DNA of 64,000 nt from an uncultured Kangiella sp. (lineage in GTDB: Bacteria; Pseudomonadota; Gammaproteobacteria; Enterobacterales; Kangiellaceae). Below, in pieces: positions 41,962-47,546 of this stretch (within the stretch, counting starts at the first letter, position 1; each line of letters begins with the position of its first letter). The position numbers and the translations under genes were made by a program. The DNA is taken from contig CANMKR010000003.1 of the NCBI GenBank assembly GCA_947498625.1, positions 372,001 through 436,000 on the forward strand, read 5' to 3'. Below the pieces are notes generated by a model. The model ran no database searches. It saw nothing but the letters and a program-made list of their open reading frames with translations, and was not told the DNA's origin.

Positions 41962-42091
41962 CTATTTGAATCTGGCACTTTTTAACAATTGTTATATCTC
42001 GTTACATTTTGCCATTGAGGCTTGCGGGATATCTTGGTACAACGAGTGTTGGTCAATTTTAATCAACTTATTTTGTAAAGTGGGGACAACC

Positions 42092-44689
42092 ATGACAAAG
42101 AGTAAAATCAGTCAAGCGCTAGCCATTGCTGTATTTGGCGCTAGCATGACTTTTGCTATACCAGCCGCTGAGGCAGCTGCTCCAGCCAAAGGCAAGAAAG
42201 AACAGAAAAAAGAAAAATCCATCCAAGATGCCGTTAAGGATATGACAAAAATCGAAGGTTTATTCGATTTATACCAAGATCCAAAAACTGGCGGCTTAAA
42301 AATGGTCATCAAAAAAGACCAGCTAGGTAAAGAATTCCTCCACTTTGTACAAGTTAGAGACGGCTTAGTCGATGTGGGCATGTTCCGTGGCGCTTATCGC
42401 GGCACTCGTATTTATTCTATCGATCGTCATTATAAGAATATTGAGTTTAAAGCTGAAAATACCAGCTTCTATTTTGATCCGGAAAATGCGGTTTCAAAAG
42501 CAAAAGATGCCAATATCAACAGCCCTGTTATTACCAGCTTAAAAATTGAAGCTGAAGATAAAGAGACAGGTGATGTGTTAGTCGATGCTAGTCAATTGTT
42601 CTTATCTGAATCATTAATGCAGATCAAACCTTCTCCACGCCCAGGCGCACGACCTGGTCAGAGTTTAGGCTTAGGTAAATTAAGCAAAAGCAAAACCAAG
42701 TTTATTGAAATTGATAACTACCCCGAAAATACCGACTTTGAAGTTGAATACGTTTATGACAACCCAGCCCCAGTAGTTCCTGCTGCGAGAACGGTAACGC
42801 CTGGTTTGTTTGCTTTAACTGACGCTCGCTCGATTGAAGTCAGCATGCGTCATTCATTAATCGAAGTACCTGATAATAACTATCAGCCTCGCTTTGATGA
42901 TCCGCGTGTTGGTTATTTTATGAATCAAGTTCACGATATGACTGCGGTTGGTGATTATACGCCTTACCGTGATGTTATTCGTCGCTGGCATTTAGAGAAA
43001 AAAGATCCAACGGCAGCTATGTCTGAGCCAGTTGAGCCAATCGTATGGTGGATAGAAAACACTACTCCTGAGTACATTCGCGAAACGGTAAAAAATGCAA
43101 CGCTTGAGTGGAACAAAGCTTTCGAAACAGCTGGTTTTAAAAACGCTGTACAGGTAAAAGTTCAGCCAGATGATGCCGACTGGGATGCAGGGGATATCCG
43201 TTATAACGTATTACGCTGGACTTCATCGCCACGCCCTCCTTTCGGCGGTTATGGCCCAAGTTTTGCTAATCCTCGTACTGGCCAGTTATTGGGCGCCGAC
43301 ATTATGTTGGAATACTCAGTCTTTAACCGTATTGCTTTTGCTGAAGACTTAATGGCGACCGAAGCTATGAGTATCGAGCAAGCGATGGAGCAATCGTTAG
43401 AATATAAACACGATGTTCATCAGGCTATGTATCAAGATGCTATGGACGGTCGCATGATGATGGAAGCGATGGCCAATAATCCTGAAGAAGTTAGCGATTT
43501 CTTGCATGATTTCATTCACTTTTTAGTATTGCATGAAGTTGGCCATACGCTTGGACTAAACCACAATATGAAGTCTAGCCAATTACACGATTTAGCTTCT
43601 GTAAGCGATAAAGCCAAAACCTCGAGCATGGGCTTAACTGGTTCAGTAATGGATTACCCAGCTATTAACTTCAGCACTGATGGTAAGCAAGGTCATTATT
43701 ATACGACTACTCCAGGTCCATACGATTTATGGGCGATTGAGTTTGGTTATAAGCCATCGCTTAGCGATGCGGCGGCTGAAGAAGCTCGTATGAATGCACT
43801 GCTAGCTCGTTCAACAGAGCCTGAGTTAGCCTTTGGTAATGATGCCGACGATATGCGCTCGCCTGGTAAAGCGATTGACCCACGAATTAACGTTGGTGAT
43901 ATGACTTCAGATGCGGTTGGCTTTGCCATTGGTCAGATGGATCATATTCGCAGCGTTGAAGATAAATTAATTGAACGCTTAGTAAAAGAAGGTGATTCTT
44001 ATCAAGGTTTAGTGAGCGGCTTTAGCGCCTTACAACGTCAATATGGCGGCCATGCTAGAACTATCTCACGCTATATTGGAGGCGTTTATTTAGATCGCGG
44101 CTTTGCCGGACAAAATGGTGCGACTGAGCCATTCCGCCCAGTGGAAAAAGCCAAACAAAAAGAAGCTATGGAAGCTTTATCTAAGTATGTGTTTGCTGAA
44201 GATGCCTTTGAGTTTAACAAAGATATTTTAAGTAAGTTACAGCTTCAACGCCGTGGCTTTAACCACTTCTCTTTCACTGAAGATCCAAAGTTGCACGATA
44301 TGGTATTAAATATGCAGCGCGGAATTTTAGTTCAAGTGCTTCATCCAGTCGTTCAAAAACGTATCATTGACTCTAGTATGTATGGCAATGAATACAGCTT
44401 GTCTGAAGTGATGGGTGATTTAACCAATGCAGTATTTAAAGGTGACTCAGGCGATGTTAATTCAATGCGTCAAAACCTACAAATCGAATACTTGAAAGGT
44501 TTGGCACGAATTGCAAAAGCAGATCCAAAAGCTGGTTATAGTAACCAAAGCGTTTCATTAGCTCGTCAGCAGTTGAAAAACATCGACTCTGATACCAGTG
44601 TTGCTTTCTGGCAATCTGATGCTACAAGAGCGCATAATCAATATGTTAAAGATATGATTAAAGCTGCACTGGAGATGAAAAAAGTTTAG
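42092..44689 (+). CDS. DUF5117/DUF5118-type zinc metalloprotease
   Basis: 865 residues with a signal peptide ending PAAEAAA. The catalytic motif HEVGHTLGLNHN (HExxHxxGxxH, metzincin type) lies about residue 530, followed by the Met-turn-like SVMDYPAINF. Upstream regions match the DUF5117/5118 layout common in secreted or periplasmic zinc proteases of marine gammaproteobacteria and Bacteroidetes. The frame is open 42 codons further upstream, but GGGGA 6 bp before this ATG and the signal peptide decide the start. Confidence 0.88.
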   Translation: MTKSKISQALAIAVFGASMTFAIPAAEAAAPAKGKKEQKKEKSIQDAVKDMTKIEGLFDLYQDPKTGGLKMVIKKDQLGKEFLHFVQVRDGLVDVGMFRGAYRGTRIYSIDRHYKNIEFKAENTSFYFDPENAVSKAKDANINSPVITSLKIEAEDKETGDVLVDASQLFLSESLMQIKPSPRPGARPGQSLGLGKLSKSKTKFIEIDNYPENTDFEVEYVYDNPAPVVPAARTVTPGLFALTDARSIEVSMRHSLIEVPDNNYQPRFDDPRVGYFMNQVHDMTAVGDYTPYRDVIRRWHLEKKDPTAAMSEPVEPIVWWIENTTPEYIRETVKNATLEWNKAFETAGFKNAVQVKVQPDDADWDAGDIRYNVLRWTSSPRPPFGGYGPSFANPRTGQLLGADIMLEYSVFNRIAFAEDLMATEAMSIEQAMEQSLEYKHDVHQAMYQDAMDGRMMMEAMANNPEEVSDFLHDFIHFLVLHEVGHTLGLNHNMKSSQLHDLASVSDKAKTSSMGLTGSVMDYPAINFSTDGKQGHYYTTTPGPYDLWAIEFGYKPSLSDAAAEEARMNALLARSTEPELAFGNDADDMRSPGKAIDPRINVGDMTSDAVGFAIGQMDHIRSVEDKLIERLVKEGDSYQGLVSGFSALQRQYGGHARTISRYIGGVYLDRGFAGQNGATEPFRPVEKAKQKEAMEALSKYVFAEDAFEFNKDILSKLQLQRRGFNHFSFTEDPKLHDMVLNMQRGILVQVLHPVVQKRIIDSSMYGNEYSLSEVMGDLTNAVFKGDSGDVNSMRQNLQIEYLKGLARIAKADPKAGYSNQSVSLARQQLKNIDSDTSVAFWQSDATRAHNQYVKDMIKAALEMKKV

Positions 44690-44711: not shown

Positions 44712-44740
44712 AAAAAACCGGCTTAATGCCGGTTTTTTTT
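44712..44740. terminator. Bidirectional terminator closing the borosin operon
   Basis: 11-bp stem AAAAAACCGGC / GCCGGTTTTTT with TTAAT loop, between the convergent metalloprotease and methyltransferase genes. Confidence 0.9.
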
Positions 44741-44760: not shown

Positions 44761-45564
44761 TTATTTTGACTCTTGCCCAAAATCAGTAATCTTTAACCCA
44801 AACTCATCCAGCGCAGTTTGATCTAATTTAAGCTCTGTTAATGGCGGAATGACCATGGTTGAAATGGACTTCAATTCAATCTCCGGTAATCGCTCTAGTG
44901 GAAACTTTTCTATCCTAGGTTCTTGAATCGGTAAAAAAGGTGCTTCATAAATAATGCATTCGTGATCTAGAGGATAATATTTATTTAAAATCCTCACTGT
45001 CGCTTGTAAGTTTTCTTTGCTGGTCTTAAATGTTTTTAAGGTGTGCTCACCCGCTAAACTAATTTGCCATAAAATTAAATGCGCACCAACGTTTGGCCGA
45101 ATACCACCAAATAAAAACTGACTGGCTTCATAGTTTTGACAGCCATAAGTTCCTGGGTCAATTCCAAGATCTGCATACAAGCAAGCATCAGCAGAAATGC
45201 CAGGCAGCATTCGTGCAGAGTAACCTTCAGATTTAAGATCTTGGATAGCAAAATGACCAACGCAAGCAAAAATACCAGGATGACCATACAAGGCCAAAAC
45301 AACTTGAGCCCCCTCCTTTACTGCATTTACCACTTCCGCAGCCATTTCTCGGTAAGTCTGTCGACGCGACTTGCCTTCACCATAGAGGTATTGCAAGCTC
45401 TTGTAGTTTGGATTAACAGCTTTGAGCCAATCTTCAGACATAAAGTCAGGTAAAATCCCATAAACTTTATCTGCTGATTGTAAATAGCTTTCAGATAATT
45501 TAGTAATTTGACCAGCTAAAGTGATACCTGTACCAATACAGGTTAAAGAACCATTTTTATTCAT
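44761..45564 (-). CDS. Split-borosin peptide alpha-N-methyltransferase (SonM-like)
   Basis: 267 residues of the tetrapyrrole-methylase fold: CIGTGITLAGQI, ALYGHPGIFACVGH, MLPGISADACLYADLGIDPG and HLILWQISLAGEHTL. In borosin enzymes this fold methylates backbone amides of a peptide with SAM. The residues Tyr61, Arg67, Tyr71 and Tyr93 have exactly the spacing of the catalytic Tyr66, Arg72, Tyr76 and Tyr98 of OphMA. Unlike OphMA no core peptide is fused to its C-terminus; a separate precursor gene heads the operon. It is the last of three genes, 24 bp after the GGDEF gene. A cobalamin-type methylase is much less likely, given the context. Confidence 0.85.
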   Translation of the reverse strand: MNKNGSLTCIGTGITLAGQITKLSESYLQSADKVYGILPDFMSEDWLKAVNPNYKSLQYLYGEGKSRRQTYREMAAEVVNAVKEGAQVVLALYGHPGIFACVGHFAIQDLKSEGYSARMLPGISADACLYADLGIDPGTYGCQNYEASQFLFGGIRPNVGAHLILWQISLAGEHTLKTFKTSKENLQATVRILNKYYPLDHECIIYEAPFLPIQEPRIEKFPLERLPEIELKSISTMVIPPLTELKLDQTALDEFGLKITDFGQESK

Positions 45565-45588
45565 TTTTTAACTTTTAATTGTATTTCA

Positions 45589-47319
45589 TTAAGTGAAACT
45601 GAAAACCTGATTACGACCCATTTGTTTTGCTTTATACATAGCATCATCGGCTGATTGCAACAAGTCTTCTAACGATTTCAGCTGAGGGTAACTTGCAACC
45701 CCAAAACTTGCCGTTATAGCAAATTGCTCTTTAAACGATGGGTGAGATATACTTTTAAATGATTCCAAACATCGACTTGCAAAAACTTCTGCATTTTCTT
45801 TAGCTGTGTTTGGAAGTACCACTATAAACTCTTCCCCACCAAGGCGCCCGAAAATATCCTGCTCTCGAATTTCAGCTGTAACCTTTGCCGCCACTTGCTT
45901 CAAAACCCAATCACCAACCGCATGTCCATACCTATCATTAATCGATTTAAAATAATCTAAATCAAAAGCTACTAAGCTGTACTTATCACTATTCCTAGTT
46001 GCTGATTCATGTAAATCTTTGGCGCGTTGCAGAACATAACGTCTTGAAAAAATTCCTGTTAAACCATCTTTCCTAGATAATTCTTGGTACCTTTCTTTTT
46101 GTTTTTTAAACTTAAAGGTTAATAATAAGACAAGACCAATTAAAAATGCTGCCCCTACAGAAAGTAACTGATATAGTTGCTTAGAGTTTTTCTCTACTTC
46201 TGAGTTTAACTTTAATAATTGATTCTCTTGGTCCAAGATCTTTACTTGAACCTCATTTTCTAATTGTGAATGCTTAACCTGTTGATAGGCAAGATTCCGA
46301 CTCGCCAAATCTTTTTGTATCGCTTGGTTCTGCTTATAAGCTTGCTCATAAAGCTTAATTGCAGCGGATTCATTGCCTAAGTTACTAGAAACTTGAGCTT
46401 GTAAATATAAAGCCTGCTGCCTAATAGCAGACAAAGGCAACTCTTTAGTTTTGTGAATTATTTGTTCTAGCTTAGTAGCAGTCGAATCATACTCTTTATT
46501 TTCAAAATCAATTTTTGCCAGATAAAGCAGCACATCGATTTCTTCTGGTAAATAAGGGGTTTGCTCAAGAAAATTATTAGCCAACTCTAGATTTAGCTTT
46601 GCTTCCCGATATTCTTTCTTATAGAGCAAATTTTTACCTAAGGTTTTGTGTAAATTTGCCAACACTAGATTAGCACCAATGTCTTTGCAGTAGTCCAAAT
46701 CAGCGTTGATAGCTTGGGTTAGGTCTACATCATTATTTTGATTCCAAAGGATGGAGCTATTTTGCGCTTTTGCATAACACTGATCTTTTTTATCTTCTTT
46801 ATCGCTAGCAATCTTCATTGCTAATTCTGAATACTTAAAAGCCTCTGGCCACGCTTCAATATTTTGAAAAAGATTAGCGGCACTATGGTAAAAATTAAAG
46901 CTGGTTTCTATACCAGGACTATCTTCAAGGATTGCTATTGCGCTATAGAGATATTCGAAAGCTTGATTGTAGTTTTGAAGATTCAGCTCTGTTTGCGATA
47001 AGAGGTTATAAGCAGCCATCCTGCTTTTGGCACCTAGATTATCCATCTCCAATATTTTTTTGAACTCGACTACAGAAGATTCATAATCGAGTTTTAAAGA
47101 GTAGTAATAACCACTATATAGAAACAACCTTGCTTTTTGCTCGTTAGAATCAAACTCTGGAAGTAGTGATTTTAAATGCTGGATTTTTTTGTATGCTTGC
47201 TCTGGATTGGTTGGGTTTAAAACTCTAATTTCATCAAGTGCATCTTCGATACTTGGGTTAGCAAGTACCGAAGAAGTGCTCAAAATGCATAATAAAATTA
47301 CTAGTAATACTTTATTCAA
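45589..47319 (-). CDS. TPR-containing membrane diguanylate cyclase (GGDEF)
   Basis: 576 residues: signal peptide (MNKVLLVILLCILSTSSVLA), a helical periplasmic region of TPR-like repeats (about 30-340), a coiled segment, one membrane span at about 382-402, then a cytosolic GGDEF domain with DGLTGIFSRR and GGEEF (494-498). GGEEF is an active-site variant that makes c-di-GMP, and REQD (485-488) is an intact RxxD product-inhibition site. The TTG start lies 8 bp past the borosin precursor stop, with no clear SD, so translation may be coupled. The periplasmic TPRs could sense a peptide or wall signal. Confidence 0.9.
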   Translation of the reverse strand: MNKVLLVILLCILSTSSVLANPSIEDALDEIRVLNPTNPEQAYKKIQHLKSLLPEFDSNEQKARLFLYSGYYYSLKLDYESSVVEFKKILEMDNLGAKSRMAAYNLLSQTELNLQNYNQAFEYLYSAIAILEDSPGIETSFNFYHSAANLFQNIEAWPEAFKYSELAMKIASDKEDKKDQCYAKAQNSSILWNQNNDVDLTQAINADLDYCKDIGANLVLANLHKTLGKNLLYKKEYREAKLNLELANNFLEQTPYLPEEIDVLLYLAKIDFENKEYDSTATKLEQIIHKTKELPLSAIRQQALYLQAQVSSNLGNESAAIKLYEQAYKQNQAIQKDLASRNLAYQQVKHSQLENEVQVKILDQENQLLKLNSEVEKNSKQLYQLLSVGAAFLIGLVLLLTFKFKKQKERYQELSRKDGLTGIFSRRYVLQRAKDLHESATRNSDKYSLVAFDLDYFKSINDRYGHAVGDWVLKQVAAKVTAEIREQDIFGRLGGEEFIVVLPNTAKENAEVFASRCLESFKSISHPSFKEQFAITASFGVASYPQLKSLEDLLQSADDAMYKAKQMGRNQVFSFT

Positions 47320-47327
47320 ACTAATAG

Positions 47328-47546
47328 TTACATCTTATGCTCGTCGATATGATGGATGATGGTTAAATAATCACACTCATCACCAACTAGCTCCTTAATT
47401 TTATCCATATCTAATTTACGAACAGCTTCAATTTCTTCTTCTGATAAACCATAGTTTTGCATGGTCTTCACTGGGTCCTTTTTATAACACTCTAATAATT
47501 CAGCATTACAACCGATTTCTTTTAAAAATTCTTTTAACTTTGACAT
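47328..47546 (-). CDS. Split-borosin precursor peptide (SonA-like)
   Basis: 72 residues. Residues 1-about 55 are helical: MSKLKEFLKEIGCNAELLECY, then KDPVKTMQNYGLSEEEIEAV, the same pattern as the borosin-binding domain of SonA from Shewanella. The C-terminus has a short core, YLTIIHH (60-66), followed by IDEHKM. In SonA the Leu and Ile of its YLVIS core are N-methylated, so Leu61 and Ile63 are the predicted targets here. Two in-frame ATG codons lie upstream, but GGAG 7 bp before this ATG and the alignment fix the start. It heads the operon with the GGDEF and methyltransferase genes. Confidence 0.82.
   Translation of the reverse strand: MSKLKEFLKEIGCNAELLECYKKDPVKTMQNYGLSEEEIEAVRKLDMDKIKELVGDECDYLTIIHHIDEHKM

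Follow-up and report, generated by a model that had tools for sequence, protein, structure and literature searches.

A split borosin operon of Kangiella and its TPR-GGDEF protein, a candidate receptor for the borosin product

A window of 64,000 nucleotides from an uncultured Kangiella sp. (the whole stretch analysed here, contig CANMKR010000003.1, positions 372,001 to 436,000) contains, at window positions 44761-47546 on the minus strand, an operon in which a gene for a small borosin precursor is followed by a gene for a protein with a tetratricopeptide repeat (TPR) domain and a GGDEF domain, and then by a gene for a separate methyltransferase related to SonM of Shewanella oneidensis. All three genes are intact and are separated by gaps of 8 and then 24 bases (Table 1), and the three-gene layout claimed in a preliminary description of this DNA is indeed there. 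Every sequence feature that we checked confirms the operon as an intact split borosin operon of type IV, and we regard borosin biosynthesis by its products, as predicted from those features, as near certain. We also favour, with modest confidence, the reading that such an operon includes a receptor: the TPR domain would sense, as its ligand, either the methylated peptide or the precursor in modified form and would thereby set cyclic di-GMP (c-di-GMP) or a phosphorelay.

The methyltransferase matches SonM (PDB 7ltc) over residues 5-263 with an E value of 7.9e-90, and enzymes of the OphMA type at approximately 1e-47. Its residues Y61, R67, Y71 and Y93, which pairwise alignment places on SonM Y58, R67, Y71 and Y93, are invariant across 15 aligned Kangiella methyltransferases (a selection from 43 places), in agreement with the separate enzyme with catalytic Tyr/Arg/Tyr/Tyr residues described previously. 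The precursor occupies an open reading frame (ORF) of 76 codons from 47558, its 72-residue form using the ATG at 47546, and the claim that it is a borosin precursor is upheld by a match to SonA (8t1s) with an E value of 1.6e-11. Profile searches, which the preliminary description had proposed for the precursor, gave no match above cut-off: the best match in Pfam, PF07746 (LigA), fell below its curated cut-off (20.5 versus 25.3 bits) and NCBIfam yielded sub-cut-off matches only, and it is therefore the direct match to SonA that carries the identification. In that alignment YLTIIH of the precursor lies on YLVISH of SonA, so that L61 and I63 correspond to SonA L63 and I65, which passages of PMC8429565 report as N-methylated by experiment; by this analogy the precursor backbone is probably N-methylated, at L61 and I63. 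The borosin binding domain (BBD) of SonA is given as residues 1-53 in the same source (PMC8429565). The features that define a type IV split borosin were all found: enzyme and precursor are encoded as separate proteins, the enzyme is of the SonM type with the conserved Tyr/Arg/Tyr/Tyr, and the precursor has what its sequence alone indicates to be an N-terminal BBD and a C-terminal core. That this is an intact split borosin locus of another lineage with a core of its own also proved correct, the lineage being Kangiella, with relatives whose methyltransferases show 94% and 83% identity, and the core being YLTIIHHIDEHKM as opposed to the YLVISHGNGD of SonA.

How far, then, does the operon depart from the SonM/SonA system? 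Both have a separate enzyme and precursor, a BBD or its leader counterpart, the catalytic residues and the aligned methylation sites. Their gene orders differ, being precursor, TPR-GGDEF and methyltransferase in Kangiella, whereas the order of the SonM/SonA type is enzyme, precursor and TPR-GGDEF. The signalling gene that had been put forward as distinguishing the Kangiella operon is present, but it does not distinguish it from SonM/SonA. In the locus CHARACTERISED, from a genome in which the SonM match is 100% identical (on the strength of which we took its genus to be Shewanella, and call its loci Shewanella-type), SonM has 263 residues and SonA has 71, the latter identical to SonA over the 67 residues compared, and an ORF of 596 residues for a TPR-GGDEF protein (GGDEF E value 1.3e-38) opens at the base right after the SonA stop codon. 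A TPR-GGDEF gene directly 3′ of SonA means that the signalling gene is also part of the type IV locus already known, and we rejected the GGDEF gene as a feature specific to the window. A term search of the main text of PMC8429565 returned no mention of GGDEF, TPR, tetratricopeptide or diguanylate. The legend of Figure 1 in PMC11395268 explains GGDEF as a component of the borosin architectures drawn there, and a link of GGDEF with borosins is therefore already in print; the type of those borosins is unstated in the legend and associated passages, which name no TPR or receptor. We found no description of a TPR partner of borosins in the literature searched, a mention in the 2022 papers on split borosins being possible.

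The product of the middle gene consists, in order, of a signal-type segment, a TPR domain, a transmembrane segment and a GGDEF domain. By hydropathy the N-terminal hydrophobic segment is found in 70 of 89 TPR-family proteins and a second hydrophobic segment, starting at residues 300-470, in 68 of the 89 and in none of the forms that are TPR-only. Of these proteins 80 have two cysteines, at positions 181 and 211, nine have neither and none has one alone, and the pair is complete in all 53 Shewanella-type TPR proteins. Such an all-or-none pattern would be expected of a disulphide outside the cytoplasm, and the TPR domain is predicted to be extracytoplasmic. At the other end of the protein, the GGDEF domain has the GG[DE]EF motif of a putative diguanylate cyclase, a motif kept in 102 of 110 TPR-GGDEF proteins, 78 of which also have RxxD.

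An AlphaFold2 model of residues 1-370 is a TPR solenoid (pLDDT 92.2, pTM 0.84), and among its Foldseek matches (such as 4gyo, TM 0.59) are Rap-pheromone complexes, with a Rap-CSF complex ranked second, and NprR. Rap and NprR, which we take to be members of the RRNPP family of peptide receptors, thus share the TPR solenoid with the Kangiella protein as far as fold resemblance goes. RRNPP receptors are cytoplasmic TPR proteins with helix-turn-helix or phosphatase functions, whereas the Kangiella protein combines a signal-type segment with a transmembrane helix and a GGDEF output, and its TPR domain is not one that we would place in the cytoplasm.

At least one borosin methyltransferase is encoded in each of 20 Kangiella genomes, and the genes occur in three main arrangements: that of the window (precursor, TPR-GGDEF, enzyme), one with the order enzyme, precursor, TPR-GGDEF, and one in which enzyme and precursor stand next to one to four TPR proteins of approximately 350-390 residues with no GGDEF domain. 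The genome from which the window comes encodes, at C1:483543, another borosin methyltransferase with 45% identity to the window enzyme, in a locus (G000:C1:483543-485743; L002, L069) of PepA-like, GNAT-like, methyltransferase, precursor and TPR-GGDEF genes, the precursor having 82 residues with an acidic tail after ILVPAE. (The gene names PepA-like, GNAT-like, gcvP, mutH/nudH, maltose-type transporter and transporter-like were assigned by eye.) The GNAT-like gene is recurrent in Kangiella loci of this acidic-tail type. The third arrangement is located between gcvP and mutH/nudH, and at this site four genomes, including that of the window, have kept TPR genes with no match to a methyltransferase or precursor. 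The TPR-only gene of the window's own genome at this site is L094:6110-7204 (C1 near 72.6-73.7 kb), and the site looks as if it were a third borosin locus after loss of its biosynthetic genes.

Which part of the middle gene is the constant partner of the borosin genes? With a profile, A1, built from 27 Kangiella TPR domains, we found 60 full-length TPR copies in the 20 Kangiella genomes, 55 of them within approximately 7 kb of a borosin methyltransferase by hand count. Outside Kangiella, a TPR protein lies in the span at 41 of 49 fetched methyltransferase loci (the eight without are L085-L090, L123 and L134), and the same is true of 62 of 63 Shewanella-type loci. Conversely, 34 TPR matches of at least 100 bits were obtained in 24 borosin genomes chosen outside Kangiella, and 30 of them, again counted by hand, are near a methyltransferase; three of the remaining four are beside maltose-type transporter genes, and the fourth directly follows a precursor-like ORF (L135:7337-7594, E value 5.8e-6) in a span with no methyltransferase match, an ORF that another methyltransferase of that genome may serve. 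The output of the TPR proteins is GGDEF in most cases; L083 and L084 have hybrid histidine kinases, L084 alongside a TPR-GGDEF protein, and further kinase matches occur at L106, L108, L115-L117 and L125-L129. Since kinase and TPR-only forms exist, we rejected GGDEF as the constant partner of borosins; it is the TPR domain that stays the same across these loci.

A methyltransferase tree of 90 rows with a midpoint root, from which L134 (ORF of more than 500 residues) was left out, groups the enzymes with TPR neighbours on the same side of a branch (85 rows, support 100/94), a side that also includes L123, L089 (on a long branch) and one row at a contig end. Three further rows of this side, the Kangiella loci L049, L051 and L055, are labelled as lacking a TPR because a BLAST label missed it, yet there are TPR matches at these loci. 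Five rows without TPR are on the other side of the branch. L106 and L108, both of the kinase type, branch from within the GGDEF loci, and it would therefore seem that the output was replaced and that TPR and borosin were retained.

Co-occurrence across whole genomes was followed at three levels, with profile searches that scored the best TPR candidates of each genome (five in the class sample, at most 13 in the order and at most 15 in the genus) and may miss weak members; as the genomes are related, the counts are given without a probability. Within the Shewanella-type genus methyltransferase and TPR family are both present in 112 of 129 genomes and both missing from the same 17, with no discordant genome, a distribution that puts the function within reach of direct tests in a laboratory strain. 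The order sample of 148 genomes comprised 34 with both, three with the methyltransferase only, four with TPR only and 107 with neither. One of the 34 (G400) was counted through a TPR match distant from its borosin, the three with methyltransferase only (G398, G421 and G440) carry lower-scoring kinase-type TPRs, and no precursor match was found by the TPR genes of the four TPR-only genomes (L140-L143, of which L142 and L143 are short contigs). Among the 369 genomes of the class sample all four with the TPR family also have the methyltransferase. The loci fetched in this work did not include one methyltransferase match at a contig end (G845).

Covariation of precursor and TPR domain was assessed by partial Mantel tests on distances, a liberal test. 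For nine Kangiella loci of the window type the TPR-core correlation is 0.62 with methyltransferase distance removed (0 of 3000 permutations as high), the TPR-leader correlation is 0.12 (763 of 3000) and the enzyme-leader correlation is 0.71 (0 of 3000); when the set is cut to six loci, TPR-core is 0.71 (36 of 3000) and TPR-leader 0.41 (184 of 3000). The corresponding values are 0.27 (15 of 3000) and -0.05 for 13 acidic-tail loci, and 0.80 (36 of 3000) and 0.49 (146 of 3000) for seven Shewanella-type loci. The GGDEF control of one of these small sets (B-type) includes two kinase-type rows and was left out of account. A larger set of 53 Shewanella-type loci, namely the 63 less six that are acidic-tail or multi-precursor and four with a TPR frame of fewer than 560 residues, gave a TPR-core correlation of 0.56 after removal of enzyme, GGDEF and leader, and an enzyme-core correlation of -0.20. 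In the nine Kangiella loci the core goes with the TPR and the leader with the enzyme, a pattern that recurred neither in this larger Shewanella-type set nor in the acidic-tail set.

How might these parts act together? The SonM-like enzyme would bind the precursor by its helical leader and N-methylate the C-terminal core along its backbone. The ligand of the TPR domain outside the inner membrane would be either the released peptide or the precursor in modified form, and the TPR domain would relay the signal via one transmembrane helix to the GGDEF domain, setting c-di-GMP. Relatives would use this TPR domain to drive a histidine kinase, or would secrete it as a TPR protein that has no output. 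For a near-constant TPR domain that is predicted to be extracytoplasmic and has exchangeable outputs, a receptor for the borosin product would be the most economical reading. It draws on the gene linkage, the conserved TPR domain with its varying outputs, the predicted topology, the cysteine pair and the apparent joint divergence of precursor and TPR; ligand binding, the direction of the signal, export, processing and a change in c-di-GMP are all steps that we infer. That a sensor-like gene usually accompanies the borosin genes in the related bacteria examined suggests that the peptides may be chemical signals, and, if the link is true, backbone N-methylation would play a role in bacterial signalling. 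A broader proposal, which we put forward tentatively and would not back at even chances, is that type IV split borosins are Gram-negative pheromones: N-methylation would give stability and passage through membranes, with no need of a dedicated exporter; a TPR receptor braced by a disulphide and lying outside the inner membrane would act through exchangeable outputs, either c-di-GMP or a phosphorelay; and the precursor would co-diverge with its receptor into pherotypes. That N-methylation would let a borosin peptide cross membranes is speculative, and it extends a general property given in the abstract of PMC8429565.

Several observations weigh against a receptor for the borosin product. The Foldseek list also contains designed TPRs and LGN, TPR folds being generally alike, and it therefore shows only a fold type able to bind peptides; the nine proteins lacking the cysteine pair are all kinase-type; and no exporter or leader protease was recognised near the loci, whose neighbours were not systematically searched. 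The enzyme-core correlation in the acidic-tail loci (0.39 with TPR removed, 0 of 3000) is no lower than their TPR-core correlation, a weaker GGDEF-core link persists in the 53 Shewanella-type loci (0.21, 0 of 5000), and block exchange is an alternative source of the covariation because the precursor and TPR genes adjoin. One Shewanella-type locus, L165, is the sole one examined with no TPR in its span. Could the TPR protein instead be a maturation, chaperone or export factor, whose GGDEF or kinase domain simply ties production to the state of the cell? Secreted-type TPR-only forms, with no output domain of their own, adjoin Kangiella borosins, and in the 53 Shewanella-type loci the leader covaries with the TPR (0.55) as strongly as the core does, so that in this set the whole precursor moves with the TPR. 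Signalling outputs are nevertheless kept, as the GGDEF motif attests, and exchanged for kinases elsewhere, neither of which a maturation factor needs, and we hold this explanation to be doubtful.

It is unlikely, in our estimation, that the TPR-GGDEF protein senses some other cue, such as envelope stress or a neighbour's compound, and switches on a borosin that acts elsewhere, for instance as an antagonist, leaving co-regulation as the only connection. The operon arrangement would fit, and biosynthetic loci frequently carry their own regulators; however, precursor and TPR appear to diverge jointly beyond methyltransferase and GGDEF, an effect that physical linkage could mimic, and c-di-GMP, as a general second messenger, would be an unusual local regulator. 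Some TPR-GGDEF relatives have no neighbouring borosin, among them those by maltose-type transporter genes in L136, L137, L138 and L145, which show no borosin match and are possibly a non-borosin branch of the family, and six of the ten methyltransferase-bearing genomes of the class sample are without the TPR family. These are points for a chance neighbourhood with no functional link, which we disfavour and consider very improbable given that the same Shewanella-type genomes have or lack both partners and that the link survives several gene orders and output swaps. Still less credible is a tetrapyrrole enzyme beside an unrelated small ORF, an idea that PF00590, the tetrapyrrole methylase family, would invite and that we rejected, since the SonM match is so close, matches to cobalamin and siroheme models are below cut-off and a SonA homologue adjoins.

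Table 1. Features of the operon and its 3′ flank, in window coordinates
Feature	Position	Strand	Basis or remark
Borosin precursor, 72 aa	47328..47546	-	SonA match, E 1.6e-11; Kangiella orthologues
Leader, putative borosin binding domain, residues 1-56	47379..47546	-	SonA alignment
Putative core region DYLTIIHHIDEHKM, residues 59-72	47331..47372	-	Predicted N-methylation sites L61 and I63, by SonA alignment
TPR-GGDEF protein, 576 aa, TTG start in ORF listing	45589..47319	-	PF00990, E 1.1e-42
N-terminal hydrophobic segment, putative signal peptide, residues 1-24	47248..47319	-	Hydropathy
Predicted TPR sensor domain, residues 25-370, cysteine pair C181/C211	46210..47247	-	AlphaFold2 model and cysteine pattern
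Second hydrophobic (transmembrane) segment, residues 381-406	46102..46179	-	Hydropathy
GGDEF domain, residues 417-571, GGEEF at residue 494 and RxxD site	45607..46071	-	PF00990, motif check
SonM-like alpha-N-methyltransferase, 267 aa, Y61/R67/Y71/Y93	44761..45564	-	SonM match, alignment
Terminator-like hairpin between operon and convergent zincin gene	44712..44738	.	Listed for + strand only

Promoter-like sites were no more frequent at the locus than in shuffled sequence. A zincin gene (DUF5117/DUF4953) at window positions 41966-44689 is convergent with the operon, and it is probably unrelated to it because a homology scan did not find it next to the same borosin locus in L037-L041. Elsewhere, one genome has a single methyltransferase followed by five consecutive TPR-family matches (G956:C1:1977654-1985460), and in the Shewanella-type loci L163, L164 and L165 two to three tandem precursor-like ORFs stand beside a single methyltransferase. 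More distant methyltransferases without a TPR match, in L085 and L087, are near a transporter-like gene and a common protein of approximately 450-470 residues. At L134:4440-7964 the borosin-type methyltransferase match lies within an ORF of 1174 residues, perhaps a fused architecture, and an archaeal relative of the methyltransferase, with 31% identity, is found on a Haloarcula plasmid.

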